Assembly (NCBI GenBank): GCA_016779425.1
Contig: JADHNQ010000003.1
Span: forward strand, 1 to 36,941
Direction: 5' to 3'
DNA length: 36,941 bases
DNA from: Pseudomonadales bacterium
GTDB lineage: Bacteria; Pseudomonadota; Gammaproteobacteria; Pseudomonadales; Azotimanducaceae
The notes below the pieces were generated by a model, which had not been told where the DNA came from, did no database searches, and was given only the letters and a program-made list of their open reading frames with translations. Positions within the stretch are counted from its first letter, which is position 1, and each line of letters starts with the position of its first letter. Of the stretch, positions 2,282 through 23,289 are shown piece by piece. The position numbers and the translations under genes were made by a program.

Positions 2282-5200
2282 TTAGGCAGCGCGACGGCGA
2301 CGCCACCTGCGCCATACCCAAATCACCAACAGCGCAACCGCCACCTTCCCTACCGTACCGTTTTGCACATACCGTAAAATAAATGTGGCCATGCGCGCCC
2401 CAACAGCGGTCGCTGGCTCAAGCTCCAAAATAGTGCCTTGTGGCGTAAGTTCTATGCCACGCAATCCGGGGTGATCTGGGGAAACACGGTAGGAAGTCTG
2501 CATCGGGTGAAACGGATAAGCTAAGGGGCGTTCGAGCGCGCCCAGGGCGCTCACCGGCGAAACATATTCCCACACCACCTCGCCTTGCGGTGTGACCTCA
2601 AAAAGATGCCCGTACTGTCCTGACGTGACATGGGTATTACCATTGGGTAATCGATAGGCACTCCCCATTTTGAAACTGGAGATTGCCTGAGGGTCTGCGG
2701 CTCGGAAGCGCCAGACGACCCTTCCGGTATCAGTATCAATTTCATCAATGGTGGTGTAGTCATCCGTATTGCCCAATACAAGACGCCGCAGGCTCCACAA
2801 CATCGATTCCAATGGATTTTCGGGCTTGGCGCCGCTGCGTCCTACCCCGTTATTGTGAACCAGAAGATTGCCGGCACCGGGCAAACCCGGCGCAACCCAG
2901 TTTGGGCCATGCGCCGCAAAAAAAAGTCTGTCGCCCGGATCTTTCCCCACATGGGGTTTACCTGCTCCATAGTTACCCGGGTTGCCATAGCGGCGCGCAA
3001 TAGCGCCGGCGGGCCCGCGCGCTGCTTCAATACCGGCCTGAGGGTTGTCATAGTTAGCAGTGCTGTGGTCGATGATGTAGACCTCACTGGCAATTCGCGC
3101 CGTCACCATTATCTGGTCGTTGCCCGCGTGATAATCGATGACGCCGCTGTGCGCCATATCTCTGTTCACCTCGGTCAGATTGAGTTCAGTAATATTGATA
3201 TCAACACGCCCGGGGTCATTCTGGTTGCCATGCATCGCGCTGCTAAAATGATCTTGAAAGCGCCACTCCCAAACGATATCGCCCGCTGGGTTTACCTCCA
3301 CCAATTTGTTAGGCCACAGCGTTTCTACACCGTTACCAATACGCTCTTGCGTGGCGCCTAAGGCTATAGCTTCTGCTCGCGTAATCTCTTCAAACGCCAT
3401 AAAGAGCGTATTACCATTTTCCAGACGATAGTAATCATCGCGCAACCGAGTTTGTTGGCCCGGGCTCTTATACTCCCACACCAGTTTGCCCTGCCAATCC
3501 AGCTCTTGAATGATGGTGCCCGGACCGGTTTTGTCTCTTCCTTTGTCAGTTCGCTTAATACCGCGCAGCAAATGTCCGTTATCCAGCAAGCGTGCAACCA
3601 TCGAGACACTCATTTCCTGTGGCAACGGCCAGCTGTGTACTACCTGACCTTCCATGTCTATTAGATAGGTTGCGCTGGCATTCTGGGGTGACAGCAAGAC
3701 GTAGCCGCCATAGGACTTATTTTGCTGGTATTGCTGCACGCCGGTGCTGGCGTCGCCGTCACGATTACGCTGATTGAATACCAGGTCGCCACTGACAGTA
3801 ACCGACTCCCTCTGCAGTGCTTCAGCGTAGGGAGTGAAACGAATATTCCCGGTGGCACTGATCATTTGGAGCGCCAGCATTTTAATTGGGTTCACCTTAA
3901 AGCCTTCCCCTGCCGCCGCGTCAAATGCGTCAATATGGGGTTGCAGCCGCGCCACAATCTCGGGGTGCGCTGCCGAGAGGTCACTGTTCTCCAGGGGATC
4001 ATCGACAATGCGAAACAGTTCCGTCGTAGGGTCTACCCACGGCAGCGGAGGACCATCGAGACGAACTAGTTTCCAGTCATCGTCTATGACGCCGGCACCC
4101 GCCAGCGGCATTCCAAACACGAAGGGCGGGCGGCGGTCTGCGGCATCTCCCAGCATCACATTCCAGCGACTAATGCCATCCAACTTGCGATTTTCATCCC
4201 TTGTTATTTCAGGTGTGTGCAACGCGGCAACAGGGAGACCGGCGGCTTCAAATACCGTGGGCAGAATATCTTCTACCGTTATCATCTGTTCAATTTTGTC
4301 TTTACTGTGCAGAACTCCAGGCCACCAGGCCGCTGCTGGAACACGTATCCCACCCTCCAGCGGAAACGTCTTGCCGCTGCGCAAGGGGTCGTTGTTTCCA
4401 GCGGAAGAATGCGAAACAGCACTCGCGGGAAACTCTGAAGAACCGCCGTTGTCGCTCATAAAGACAATCAGGGTGTTGTGTGCAATATCTTCAGCTTGTA
4501 GCGCCTTTAGAACTTCGCCGATACCCACATCCATGTTATCTACCATGGCTGCATAGACGCGCCGTTCCTCTTTTTCGATCTTCGAATAAAGATCAATCGA
4601 GCTTTGTGGTGCCGCCTGCGGCCCATGCGGAGCGTTATAGGCCAACAGCATAAACAGCGGACGGGACTTATCCCTATGTTGCAACAACTTAATCGCTTCA
4701 GCGGTGATTAGCTCGGTAGAGTAGCCGTCCTCGTGCACAGTAACGCCGTTGCGCTGCCAATCGACGGCACCCATCAAACCGTGATCGTAGTAGTCGATGA
4801 AACCGCCCAGATGACCGTAGAAATGATCGAAGCCGCGGTTGTGCGGAAAATATGCTGGCGTCGCGCTCCCTAGATGCCATTTTCCTACTAGAGACGTTTG
4901 GTAACCTACCTCGCCTAGCCACTGCGGCAACAGTTTCGTGTACAAAGGCAGACCAGGCGAATCGAACGATGAAATTGGCTGTGTCATGCCAGTACGCAGC
5001 GCCGACTGCCCGGTCAACAATGCGGCTCTGGTGGGAGTACAGCTCGGATAGACATAGAAACGATCCAACTCCACACCTTCACGTGCAAGTCGATCAATAT
5101 TGGGCGTGCGTATCTCACTGCCGTGATACCCAACGTCGTTCCAGCCCAGATCATCGGCCAGTATTAGAATAATGTTTGGTCTTTGGTCTGTATCTGAAAC

Positions 5201-5335
5201 ATCACCATCAGAGCTAGCGAAAGCGACGGACGAAAACATTAGCAGCCAGTAGGTGACGGCCAAGAAGGCCAGGGTCAGGCTGGGTGCGTTGAGCTGTGGA
5301 ATCGTATCGTCCTGAAGTATTGAGCGAGCAGCCAT
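2282..5335 (-). CDS. Sulfatase fused to a C-terminal arylsulfotransferase (ASST)-like beta-propeller domain, with C-terminal TM anchor
   Basis: 1017 aa. N-terminal RPNIILILADDLGWNDVGYHGSEIRTPNIDRLA and YPSCTPTRAALLTG (Cys-type sulfatase C-X-P-X-R). C-terminal GGYVLLSPQNASATYLIDMEGQVVHSWPL, AMHGNQNDPGRVDINITELNLTEVNRDMAHSGVIDY, YRLPNGNTHVTSGQYGHLFEVTPQGEVVWEY are ASST-like. Ends VAVALLVIWVWRRWRRRRAA. Confidence 0.88.
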   Translation of the reverse strand: MAARSILQDDTIPQLNAPSLTLAFLAVTYWLLMFSSVAFASSDGDVSDTDQRPNIILILADDLGWNDVGYHGSEIRTPNIDRLAREGVELDRFYVYPSCTPTRAALLTGQSALRTGMTQPISSFDSPGLPLYTKLLPQWLGEVGYQTSLVGKWHLGSATPAYFPHNRGFDHFYGHLGGFIDYYDHGLMGAVDWQRNGVTVHEDGYSTELITAEAIKLLQHRDKSRPLFMLLAYNAPHGPQAAPQSSIDLYSKIEKEERRVYAAMVDNMDVGIGEVLKALQAEDIAHNTLIVFMSDNGGSSEFPASAVSHSSAGNNDPLRSGKTFPLEGGIRVPAAAWWPGVLHSKDKIEQMITVEDILPTVFEAAGLPVAALHTPEITRDENRKLDGISRWNVMLGDAADRRPPFVFGMPLAGAGVIDDDWKLVRLDGPPLPWVDPTTELFRIVDDPLENSDLSAAHPEIVARLQPHIDAFDAAAGEGFKVNPIKMLALQMISATGNIRFTPYAEALQRESVTVSGDLVFNQRNRDGDASTGVQQYQQNKSYGGYVLLSPQNASATYLIDMEGQVVHSWPLPQEMSVSMVARLLDNGHLLRGIKRTDKGRDKTGPGTIIQELDWQGKLVWEYKSPGQQTRLRDDYYRLENGNTLFMAFEEITRAEAIALGATQERIGNGVETLWPNKLVEVNPAGDIVWEWRFQDHFSSAMHGNQNDPGRVDINITELNLTEVNRDMAHSGVIDYHAGNDQIMVTARIASEVYIIDHSTANYDNPQAGIEAARGPAGAIARRYGNPGNYGAGKPHVGKDPGDRLFFAAHGPNWVAPGLPGAGNLLVHNNGVGRSGAKPENPLESMLWSLRRLVLGNTDDYTTIDEIDTDTGRVVWRFRAADPQAISSFKMGSAYRLPNGNTHVTSGQYGHLFEVTPQGEVVWEYVSPVSALGALERPLAYPFHPMQTSYRVSPDHPGLRGIELTPQGTILELEPATAVGARMATFILRYVQNGTVGKVAVALLVIWVWRRWRRRRAA

Positions 5336-20362: not shown

Positions 20363-20890
20363 TCATCCTTCATTGCTAAGCGCCGCTATTACGTCATCGA
20401 CGATCGCATCAGCTTTCTCACGAATCTGGTCACCTGTCGCGTCCTGAATAGGATGCGATACTAGTAGGTACCTCGCATCAGCCATACCCAGAGCCTTCGC
20501 CTGGATTTTTGCGGCGTCCCCAAATTCTGTCGAGGCAATGGCCACAGCAGGCTTTTTCTCGATTTCAAAATAAACGGTGTCATGCAAACTGCACGACGTA
20601 CAGGAACCTCAGTCGGCAAGACCTATGACAACAAAGTCATTGATTTTTTTGATCTCCCTGCGCAGATCAGCCGGCGCCGGTTTTGAAAAGGTGGGTTTTT
20701 GATACCGATTAACTTCAACTTGAGGAAGTCGCCGTTCCATCGCTTCCTGAAGACGGTCTAAAAACTCATCGCTCCGCCTTTTAGCAATATCAAGCAGGGC
20801 GACCTTGCCTACGATCGCCTCCGGTCTTGGTGTTATCTGTCGAGCAACCGGTACCTCTTCGTTGGTCGGATCTAGCAATGTCACTGACAT
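20363..20890 (-). CDS. UGSC family selenoprotein (Sec encoded by in-frame UGA at 20609-20611)
   Basis: Reading through TGA gives MSVTLLDPTNEEVPVARQITPRPEAIVGKVALLDIAKRRSDEF...KKINDFVVIGLADUGSCTSCSLHDTVYFEIEKKPAVAIASTEFGDAAKIQAKALGMADARYLLVSHPIQDATGDQIREKADAIVDDVIAALSNEG*. ORF track splits it at 20609 and 20587. RBS AAGGAGAG upstream. Confidence 0.88.
20579..20597 (-). promoter_or_regulatory. Candidate bacterial SECIS hairpin
   Basis: GUCGUGCA-GUU-UGCAUGAC on the minus strand: 8-bp stem with one G-U pair; loop starts 20 nt after the UGA with G first. Confidence 0.7.
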
Positions 20891-20910: not shown

Positions 20911-22482
20911 TTACATATAGTCGTCTATTTTTCTGGAAACCGGAATAGAGCCCATGCTTCTGGGGATCCAGCCGTGAAAGAATGCGGTGCATTTACCAGC
21001 CTCGCTGCCTGCCACAACAATTTCAATGTGATCTTCCGCACCGAATTTTCCGATTCGCCTATCGGCCGGTAGCTGAGCCAGGCCGGCAAGCTGTTCCGGT
21101 GATGCACTCGGGCCTTGAATAAGCTCTTGCACGGACTTTTCACTGGCTTTCTGAATGTCTCTGCGCAAGGCGGATTTGCTAACCTTGTCACGTTTAAAAA
21201 CATCGTTGTGCTCTGGAGAAACAACCATCAGGCAGTTTGAAGAAGCGTACCAGTTGGCATTGAACATGCCTTTAGTAGCTTCGCCGATGGCTGCGGCCAG
21301 CACAGGTGCTTCGGTGGTTGTTTCATCAAGAATCAAAGTTGGACCTGCCGACATGGCAAGCGTTGTAACCACCGAATCGTTGGCGTCAAACCCGCGATCA
21401 ACATGAAACGGATCCCAGCAGGACCTCTCTTCCCACTCGGCAAAACACATGGTGAATTTCATGGGGTTTGAAAATGTCGAACGCTCTGTGCCGCCTGGCT
21501 TTGCGCCACCAACGTTGCGGATGACCAGCCTGAGTGCGCGGCCAATCGTCGCATTGGCGCGATTTCCCTGGCCTAGCGCGCCTAGCCCCATGTTCATCTT
21601 CAGAAGATGGCGAATTGGACCGTTGACAATCATGACTGGACTAGCACCCATAGTCGTTGCCATGACGCCATGGATATTAAATTCATCGGTGCACACGGCA
21701 TCAACTGCCGCCATGACGACTGGCAGGTACTCAGGTCTGCATCCAGCCATGACAGCGTTGATGGCAACTTTCTCGACGGTCACCTTCGCCATGTTCGGCG
21801 GCATGATGGCGATCACCTCCTGCGGATCTAGACTTGTACCCTGCAGCATGCTGAGCACTCTTTGAGGCGTTGGTGGAATAACCGGCAGGCCGTCAGTGAA
21901 TCCTTGATCAAACATGAACTCGAATTCGTCGTCTTGGCTGCCCATCTCTATTCGTCGCGCTCTTATCGGACTGTTTTCTGCCTCAGCCTGAAGCCGTTCA
22001 GCATGCAGCGGATCGACTGAAAGTGAACCACAACCTGGGCGCCAGCTGGGGAGTGAGTCCCATTCAACCGTATGTTGAGTAATAGCGTGTTGTTCGAAAA
22101 GTTCAGCGACCAACTCTTGCCATTCCTCACGGACAAAACCGCTGCGTTCGACCAGTACGTGGCCCCCGGAGTCGGTCAGAAATACCTGGGGTACGATTTC
22201 AATGTCATTGATAAACGATACTTTTAGTGCACTGTCATCGAGCAGATTGAAGGGGGGGTCAAACTCACTCATTAACCGGGAGTTACCACTACTGGTCTGA
22301 CCGATAATAAAAAAGTCGAGTTCACTGGATAGCGAATCATTTATGGCCGCTAGTACGGGTAGGACGAGCCTGCAAGTAGGGCAGTCCTCTTTGATAAAAC
22401 AGACAAGAGATCGGCGCGCACTGGGGAAGCTGCGCTTTATGCCCGTGGAGTCTTCCAGTGTGAATGGGGTGATAACTGACAC
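20911..22482 (-). CDS. Thioredoxin-like domain (CPTC) fused to a large UGSC-associated domain
   Basis: N-terminal SARRSLVCFIKEDCPTCRLVLPVLAAINDSL is thioredoxin/peroxiredoxin-like; long C-terminal region FMFDQGFTDGLPVIPPTPQRVLSML...HIEIVVAGSEAGKCTAFFHGWIPRSMGSIPVSRKID. Confidence 0.8.
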   Translation of the reverse strand: MSVITPFTLEDSTGIKRSFPSARRSLVCFIKEDCPTCRLVLPVLAAINDSLSSELDFFIIGQTSSGNSRLMSEFDPPFNLLDDSALKVSFINDIEIVPQVFLTDSGGHVLVERSGFVREEWQELVAELFEQHAITQHTVEWDSLPSWRPGCGSLSVDPLHAERLQAEAENSPIRARRIEMGSQDDEFEFMFDQGFTDGLPVIPPTPQRVLSMLQGTSLDPQEVIAIMPPNMAKVTVEKVAINAVMAGCRPEYLPVVMAAVDAVCTDEFNIHGVMATTMGASPVMIVNGPIRHLLKMNMGLGALGQGNRANATIGRALRLVIRNVGGAKPGGTERSTFSNPMKFTMCFAEWEERSCWDPFHVDRGFDANDSVVTTLAMSAGPTLILDETTTEAPVLAAAIGEATKGMFNANWYASSNCLMVVSPEHNDVFKRDKVSKSALRRDIQKASEKSVQELIQGPSASPEQLAGLAQLPADRRIGKFGAEDHIEIVVAGSEAGKCTAFFHGWIPRSMGSIPVSRKIDDYM

Positions 22483-22485
22483 TGG

Positions 22486-22695
22486 CTATAGTTCCACTGG
22501 GATGTTGACGCAGGGTTGCTCACTGCGGTTTCGATGTTCAATCAGGGTCGGGTGTATGTCTCCCTTAAAATCGTCGAGTCCCTGGTGCTCCATCATGGCC
22601 TTTGCCGGCAGTCTCCGCGTACTGGCATCGCCACGTGCCAGGGCGTTTTGTAACCCATCGGATTTAAAAATTTCTTGGCTTGCCGTGTGTTGCAT
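22486..22695 (-). CDS. Small conserved-looking protein, first gene of the probable UGSC operon
   Basis: 69-aa ORF MQHTASQEIFKSDGLQNALARGDASTRRLPAKAMMEHQGLDDFKGDIHPTLIEHRNRSEQPCVNIPVEL; stop abuts the next start; AGGCAGG upstream. Confidence 0.55.
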   Translation of the reverse strand: MQHTASQEIFKSDGLQNALARGDASTRRLPAKAMMEHQGLDDFKGDIHPTLIEHRNRSEQPCVNIPVEL

Positions 22696-22710: not shown

Positions 22711-23289
22711 CTAGTACTGAACCTTATGACCACGCATTACGGTGCTACGTAGGTCCAGAGAGTCGAGACTCATAGTCTCGGGAGCATTGATATCGTTAAG
22801 TTTCAAGTATGGCTCGTAGGACGCTAGTTTGCTGGAGCCATTACTGATCGCGGTGAGCGTACCACGGAATATTGCATGATCTGTCACCGCGTAAAAGTTG
22901 AGAGGTTGACGCAGTTGCACATCAAACCCACCAGAATGTCTGATTTTTTCACCTTTCGCATAGCGATAGGCATCGCCTAGTGTTGCCAGGGTGCCGTAAG
23001 CGAATGCATCAAGGTAATAGGCGGTGTGAACGTGCAGATCTCCAAAGTAGGCCTTTCGCGAAGTCTGTTTGTCCGGTTGGAGAGTCAATGAGTCTCCGGG
23101 GATTTCATAGCGAGGGTCGAATGCTGCTGATGCGGGATTTACCGGGGTAGGGTCAGTTGATGAAGATTGATTCGGCGGTACTTCAGACCAACCAACGGAC
23201 AGGCAAAGTAACACTAAAAGGAAATCAACTCGCGTGATCCGAGAGTTGGTTTTATCTAATGTAACTGGCGTAAGTATTTTCGATATCAT
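22711..23289 (-). pseudogene. N-terminal fragment of a DUF3604 (PHP-like) protein
   Basis: RKAYFGDLHVHTAYYLDAFAYGTLATLGDAYRYAKGEKI...FYAVTDHAIFRG. DUF3604 proteins are usually several hundred aa; this ends at about 190 aa. Confidence 0.65.

Follow-up and report, generated by a model that had tools for sequence, protein, structure and literature searches.

A UGSC selenoprotein and its near-constant, thioredoxin-fused partner: a candidate two-component selenoenzyme

Thioredoxin is the electron donor of glycine reductase. The GrdB/PrdB proteins of the glycine and proline reductases (PF07355) are UxxC selenoproteins that have a partner subunit, as does the selenoprotein described here. The present system differs from them in that its selenoprotein gives no PF07355 profile match, its partner domain, D, is unrelated by sequence to the known subunits, and its thioredoxin is built in. 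Thioredoxins of the TlpA/ResA/DsbE type resemble the N-terminal domain of the partner protein (Trx-D) in fold, in the position of the CxxC motif and in a conserved proline. In contrast to them, Trx-D has no evident signal or anchor, is fused to D, carries the motif CPTC and would serve a single selenoprotein partner. The selenoprotein itself belongs to the UGSC family (PF24696/NF041046), which is described as being of unknown function; our gene is a full-length representative with the UGSC motif and an in-frame UGA. The passages on this family in the 2008 GOS metagenome study offer the guess of a thioredoxin-like fold and remark on a fusion of UGSC to a domain called Unknown_1 (PMC2398784). 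Beyond that remark we found no described UGSC partner in the literature, and Unknown_1 may or may not equal D. The UGSC family was thus already known; new here are the near-universal D partner and a predicted flavodoxin-like fold.

The window is the whole stretch of DNA analysed, 36,941 nucleotides (nt) from a Pseudomonadales bacterium. Its minus strand carries three co-directional ORFs, at 22486-22695, then 20911-22482, then 20363-20890. The gap between the 69-amino-acid (aa) ORF and the 523-aa ORF is 3 nt, and 20 nt separate the latter from the selenoprotein ORF. An earlier, sequence-only reading had placed the selenoprotein within 20911-22695; its real position, 20363-20890, is just outside. 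The features are as follows.

20911..22482, minus strand: Trx-D gene, 523 aa, GTG start (ORF; start and architecture conserved in relatives)
22078..22482, minus strand: thioredoxin domain, residues ~1-135, TlpA/ResA/DsbE-like (Foldseek, weak profile matches)
22372..22383, minus strand: CPTC motif, residues 34-37, predicted electron-donating dithiol (near-invariant in relatives)
20914..21945, minus strand: D domain, residues ~180-523, ~345 aa, predicted substrate-binding/catalytic partner of UGSC
20363..20890, minus strand: UGSC selenoprotein gene, 175 aa, Sec94, motif U94-G-S-C97-T-S-C100 (profile matches, AF2 model)
20609..20611, minus strand: UGA read as selenocysteine, residue 94 (stop codon at the same place in homologues)
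20579..20597, minus strand: SECIS-like hairpin, 8-bp stem, GUU loop (stem begins 11 nt after the UGA)
22486..22695, minus strand: 69-aa ORF, putative pseudogene, derived from a ~251-aa gene and now short of ~180 internal codons; outside the system

The 175-aa protein matched PF24696 over its full length (E=9.8e-44, 149.9 bits, cut-off 25) and NF041046 with E=5.7e-42 (143.2 bits, cut-off 125). Together with the in-frame TGA, these profiles confirmed the earlier claim that a UGSC selenoprotein (UGSCTSC) lies directly downstream of the thioredoxin fusion gene. Its AF2 model (pLDDT 94.9) is a five-stranded alpha/beta/alpha structure of flavodoxin-like topology, in which Sec94 opens the helix that follows strand 3. 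The best PDB matches were flavodoxin/azoreductase (TM 0.45-0.5), a likeness at the level of topology only. The predicted topology is not that of the thioredoxin fold suggested for UGSC in PMC2398784. Inspection by eye revealed no evident signal peptide on Trx-D or UGSC.

At 140 homologous places, taken from loci that partly overlap, the Sec codon was UGA in 139 and UAG in one. This count used a pattern that seeks stop codons only; Cys forms were sought by profile searches instead. In these searches, nearly every full-length UGSC match had one in-frame stop, and the single full-length match without it had Ser at the Sec position. That homologue (L162:3978-4449, DSECSS) has no adjoining D domain. 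The UAG codon belongs to Blastococcus massiliensis (L116:11323-11325). Geodermatophilaceae have been reported to possess a tRNA-Sec with a CUA anticodon, and UGSC proteins were named among the affected genes (PMC5330540). Since the Blastococcus codon matches the reported tRNA change, it is good evidence that the stop is read as Sec. For GOS metagenomes, the part of PMC2398784 that treats this family gives 21 Cys against 255 Sec homologues of UGSC, so Sec is not absolutely required.

Folded alone, the window hairpin was weak and not significant by itself (z about -1). Of 77 distinct homologous segments, 66 had a GUN loop at this distance from the Sec codon, and the mean z against synonymous-codon shuffles was -1.35. 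SelB was detected in 44 of 49 near-complete relatives bearing UGSC and in 4 of 33 without UGSC (Fisher p=6e-13, calculated on genomes that are not independent). Neither selB nor tRNA-Sec was found in the window's own genome, which is 81% complete; both presumably lie in the missing part of the assembly. In 14 alphaproteobacterial loci (L076, L082-L087, L091, L093, L094 and L096-L099), a tRNA-Sec gene lies within ~1 kb of Trx-D and UGSC. ORFs labelled selA and/or selB accompany them at 13 of these loci, and a selD label was given at four; L093 is the one locus where ORF calling gave no label. UGSC is a single-copy gene in all 14 of these genomes, and a formate dehydrogenase N match over the family cut-off was found in none of them.

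The sequence-only reading had described the middle gene as a thioredoxin-like CPTC domain joined to a large domain that it could not assign, and the 523-aa ORF bears this out, with CPTC at residues 34-37 and D at ~180-523. The GTG start lines up with the start codons of homologues. The AF2 model of Trx-D has a pLDDT of 93.4, rising to 96-98 within the thioredoxin domain. This domain gave a best Foldseek E of 1.7e-8 against the PDB (TM by target about 0.83); sequence profiles matched it weakly, with a best E of 7e-5 among members. Residues C34, T36 and C37 are nearly invariant in 53 Trx-D proteins, and the conserved P98 occupies the cis-Pro position of thioredoxin folds. When 26 diverse members were searched against each of Pfam and NCBIfam, no match extended beyond the thioredoxin part. 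D had no match among PDB sequences either, and Foldseek with the full Trx-D model gave, among the matches listed, thioredoxin domains only. A search of viral contigs by means of close peptide patterns detected no D. Conserved residues of D are D197, E237, K238, C248, R308, N310, R315, K342, E349, E351, H425 and W505; C248 and C346 are the only Cys residues conserved across the classes of D described below. The invariant polar residues of D are such as active sites typically contain.

Whether the two proteins recur together in other genomes was the point on which the sequence-only reading had staked its proposal, and they do. A survey of 98 related genomes yielded 124 D matches and 120 UGSC matches, the latter count leaving out three small or sub-threshold pieces. 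UGSC adjoined D in 118 of the 120, on the same strand in all but two of these. The two non-adjoining UGSC genes were one cut by a contig end and one with Ser for Sec. Where D lacked a UGSC, the match was either a fragment next to a contig end or break or the second D of a tandem. A scan of GTDB genomes gave more than 570 D relatives, and the best 80 loci were examined; UGSC was downstream on the same strand in 76 of these 80, a set biased toward Trx-fused forms because the query itself is Trx-fused. The 80 loci span at least eight phyla, with Gamma- and Alphaproteobacteria, Chloroflexi, Acidobacteria, Actinomycetota, Deltaproteobacteria, Myxococcota and Rokubacteria among the groups represented. 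In the other four loci, UGSC was on the opposite strand (L134), about 7 kb away (L141), absent from the DNA covered (L137) or cut off (L120). UGSC was found 1.7-3.9 kb from D in L101, L102 and L121.

D and UGSC have also evolved together. A mirror-tree comparison of 125 pairs gave r=0.89 (best of 500 permutations, 0.17), a correlation to which shared species history contributes. One genome (G045) encodes UGSC and D in a single reading frame. Along with the Trx-D fusions, this natural fusion means that fusions link thioredoxin to D and D to UGSC. The adjacency in 118 of 120 cases, the matching trees and both kinds of fusion strongly support the earlier proposal of a dedicated partner pair. The pairing, the selenocysteine and the domain anatomy are firm, and the near-constant pairing across phyla points to one undescribed selenium enzyme.

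Three classes of D were distinguished: Trx-fused, stand-alone with a C-terminal CIDC motif, and stand-alone with an FCEIP tail. The D gene comes first in the CIDC class; UGSC comes first, with the motif UGSCTTG, in the FCEIP class. Some genomes hold up to five diverged UGSC/D pairs. The window's own genome contains a second Trx-D/UGSC pair (G000:C48:643-2818), 58% identical and located beside an MFS transporter. A tandem or flanking second D was observed around one UGSC gene in L100, L104, L108, L109 and L161, and at another locus a ResA-like protein with a WAxxUGC motif (NF041054; L064:119-859) is encoded near Trx-D and UGSC. In raw tallies, neighbours of the stand-alone forms included genes for fumarase, CoA-transferase III, acyl-CoA dehydrogenase, Rieske oxygenase and amidohydrolase. 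For the Trx-fused form, the only neighbours that recurred often in such tallies were sel genes, selB above all. Since no other gene recurs often beside the Trx-fused form, its neighbourhood gives no pointer to the substrate.

We propose that Trx-D and UGSC are the subunits of one cytosolic selenoenzyme. D would bind a small-molecule substrate and position it at the Sec94 selenol. This selenol, at the N-terminal end of a helix of the flavodoxin-like protein UGSC, would attack or reduce the substrate. The oxidised centre would be a Sec94-Cys97 selenenylsulfide; the CPTC thioredoxin domain fused to D would restore it to the reduced state, drawing its own electrons from the thioredoxin reductase of the cell. 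Where D stands alone, the role of the thioredoxin domain may fall to separate thioredoxins or, in one class, to the C-terminal CIDC. The selenoprotein, the near-obligate pairing, the shared evolution, the fusions and the folds of the thioredoxin domain and UGSC were computed directly; from them we infer the complex, the electron flow and the reaction. On balance, we think it probable that the pair is a cytosolic, thioredoxin-fed selenoenzyme acting as a substrate-specific reductase, with D selecting the substrate. The absence of Cys forms from our sample, the diverging paralogues and the catabolic neighbours make a reductive enzyme for a specific substrate plausible, rather than a general antioxidant. 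We further suggest, tentatively, that UGSC and D could represent a new class of two-component selenoenzymes, separate from the glycine and proline reductases, whose paralogues have diversified for different substrates and which may be the main reason why Alphaproteobacteria keep Sec machinery.

In a general antioxidant role, UGSC would act as a Sec peroxidase or as a disulfide reductase, the fused thioredoxin would regenerate it, and D would serve for scaffolding or oligomerisation. A UxxC motif with a dedicated thioredoxin is indeed what is expected of a peroxidase system, no metabolic gene is constantly found beside the Trx-fused form, and UGSC is a single gene in 14 of 14 alphaproteobacteria. 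However, the predicted fold of UGSC is neither that of a peroxiredoxin nor that of thioredoxin, and D is conserved, many of its invariant residues being charged and polar, as would suit an active site. That a genome can hold as many as five diverged pairs, and that stand-alone forms lie amid varied catabolic genes, also speaks against it, and we regard this role as unlikely. For detoxification or metal(loid) handling, such as the reduction of an organometal or the binding of a soft metal, one would point to Sec and clustered Cys as ligands of soft metals and to the stand-alone cassette with sel genes, which would fit a self-contained resistance function. Metal-resistance genes are missing from the recurrent neighbours, however, and the Cys residues of D other than C248 and C346 vary between classes, which leaves a metal-handling pair, as opposed to a metabolic enzyme, very improbable.

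C-X bond cleavage of the glycine/proline reductase type is a further alternative, in which UGSC would correspond to the Sec domain of GrdB/PrdB in shortened form, and D would take the role of GrdE/PrdA. The UxxC(xxC) motif is shared, and glycine reductase, too, takes electrons from thioredoxin. Profile-profile alignment with PF07355 selenoproteins of relatives placed Sec on Sec and HPIQ on YPLG (pairwise E 0.0016), but the hhalign probability was only 16%. UGSC gave no PF07355 match at E<=1, nor did D match any Pfam family at that threshold, that of the pyruvoyl proprotein GrdE/PrdA included, and neither GrdA nor an acetyl-phosphate-forming partner was seen among the neighbours. Because the register is suggestive but the hhalign probability weak, the link is kept as a rival only. 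A relation of UGSC to GrdB/PrdB is possible but weak as judged by alignment, and a reaction of this type seems distinctly unlikely for the pair. The near-obligate, unannotated partner with its built-in thioredoxin and the natural fusions give the UGSC family a concrete complex to express. The alphaproteobacterial cassette of selA/selB and tRNA-Sec offers a simple genetic system for deleting the UGSC/Trx-D pair. The D domain merits a family entry of its own.

The 69-aa ORF had been counted as the first gene of a three-gene operon. The layout of three same-strand ORFs with gaps of 3-20 nt held, but the small ORF proved not to be a member. No relative of it was present upstream of other Trx-D genes in any locus compared. 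In 58 relatives, better-than-noise matches fell only within ORFs of 270-333 aa. Residues 1-46 match one end of ~251-aa proteins (L156/L157) and the final 23 residues the other, with ~180 codons absent between them; both end alignments beat 2000 shuffles. The lack of conservation upstream of Trx-D and the two-end alignment rule out a conserved third component, and the ORF is read as a pseudogene remnant. The system therefore comprises two genes, not three.

Beside this remnant, a DUF3604 ORF (window 22711-23289) matches the profile of that family, 591 positions long, from 2 to 100 only, and the stretch with both ORFs looks like decayed genes. Several PF07355 (GrdB/PrdB-like) genes with the motif V-U-P-x-C and an in-frame TGA were seen in relatives (L144-L154). 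PF07355 matches number up to seven per genome in relatives, and profile matches were also obtained on two contigs of the window's own genome (G000:C111 and C114). Elsewhere in the window (2282-5335), one 1017-aa ORF joins a sulfatase domain to an arylsulfotransferase-like domain.
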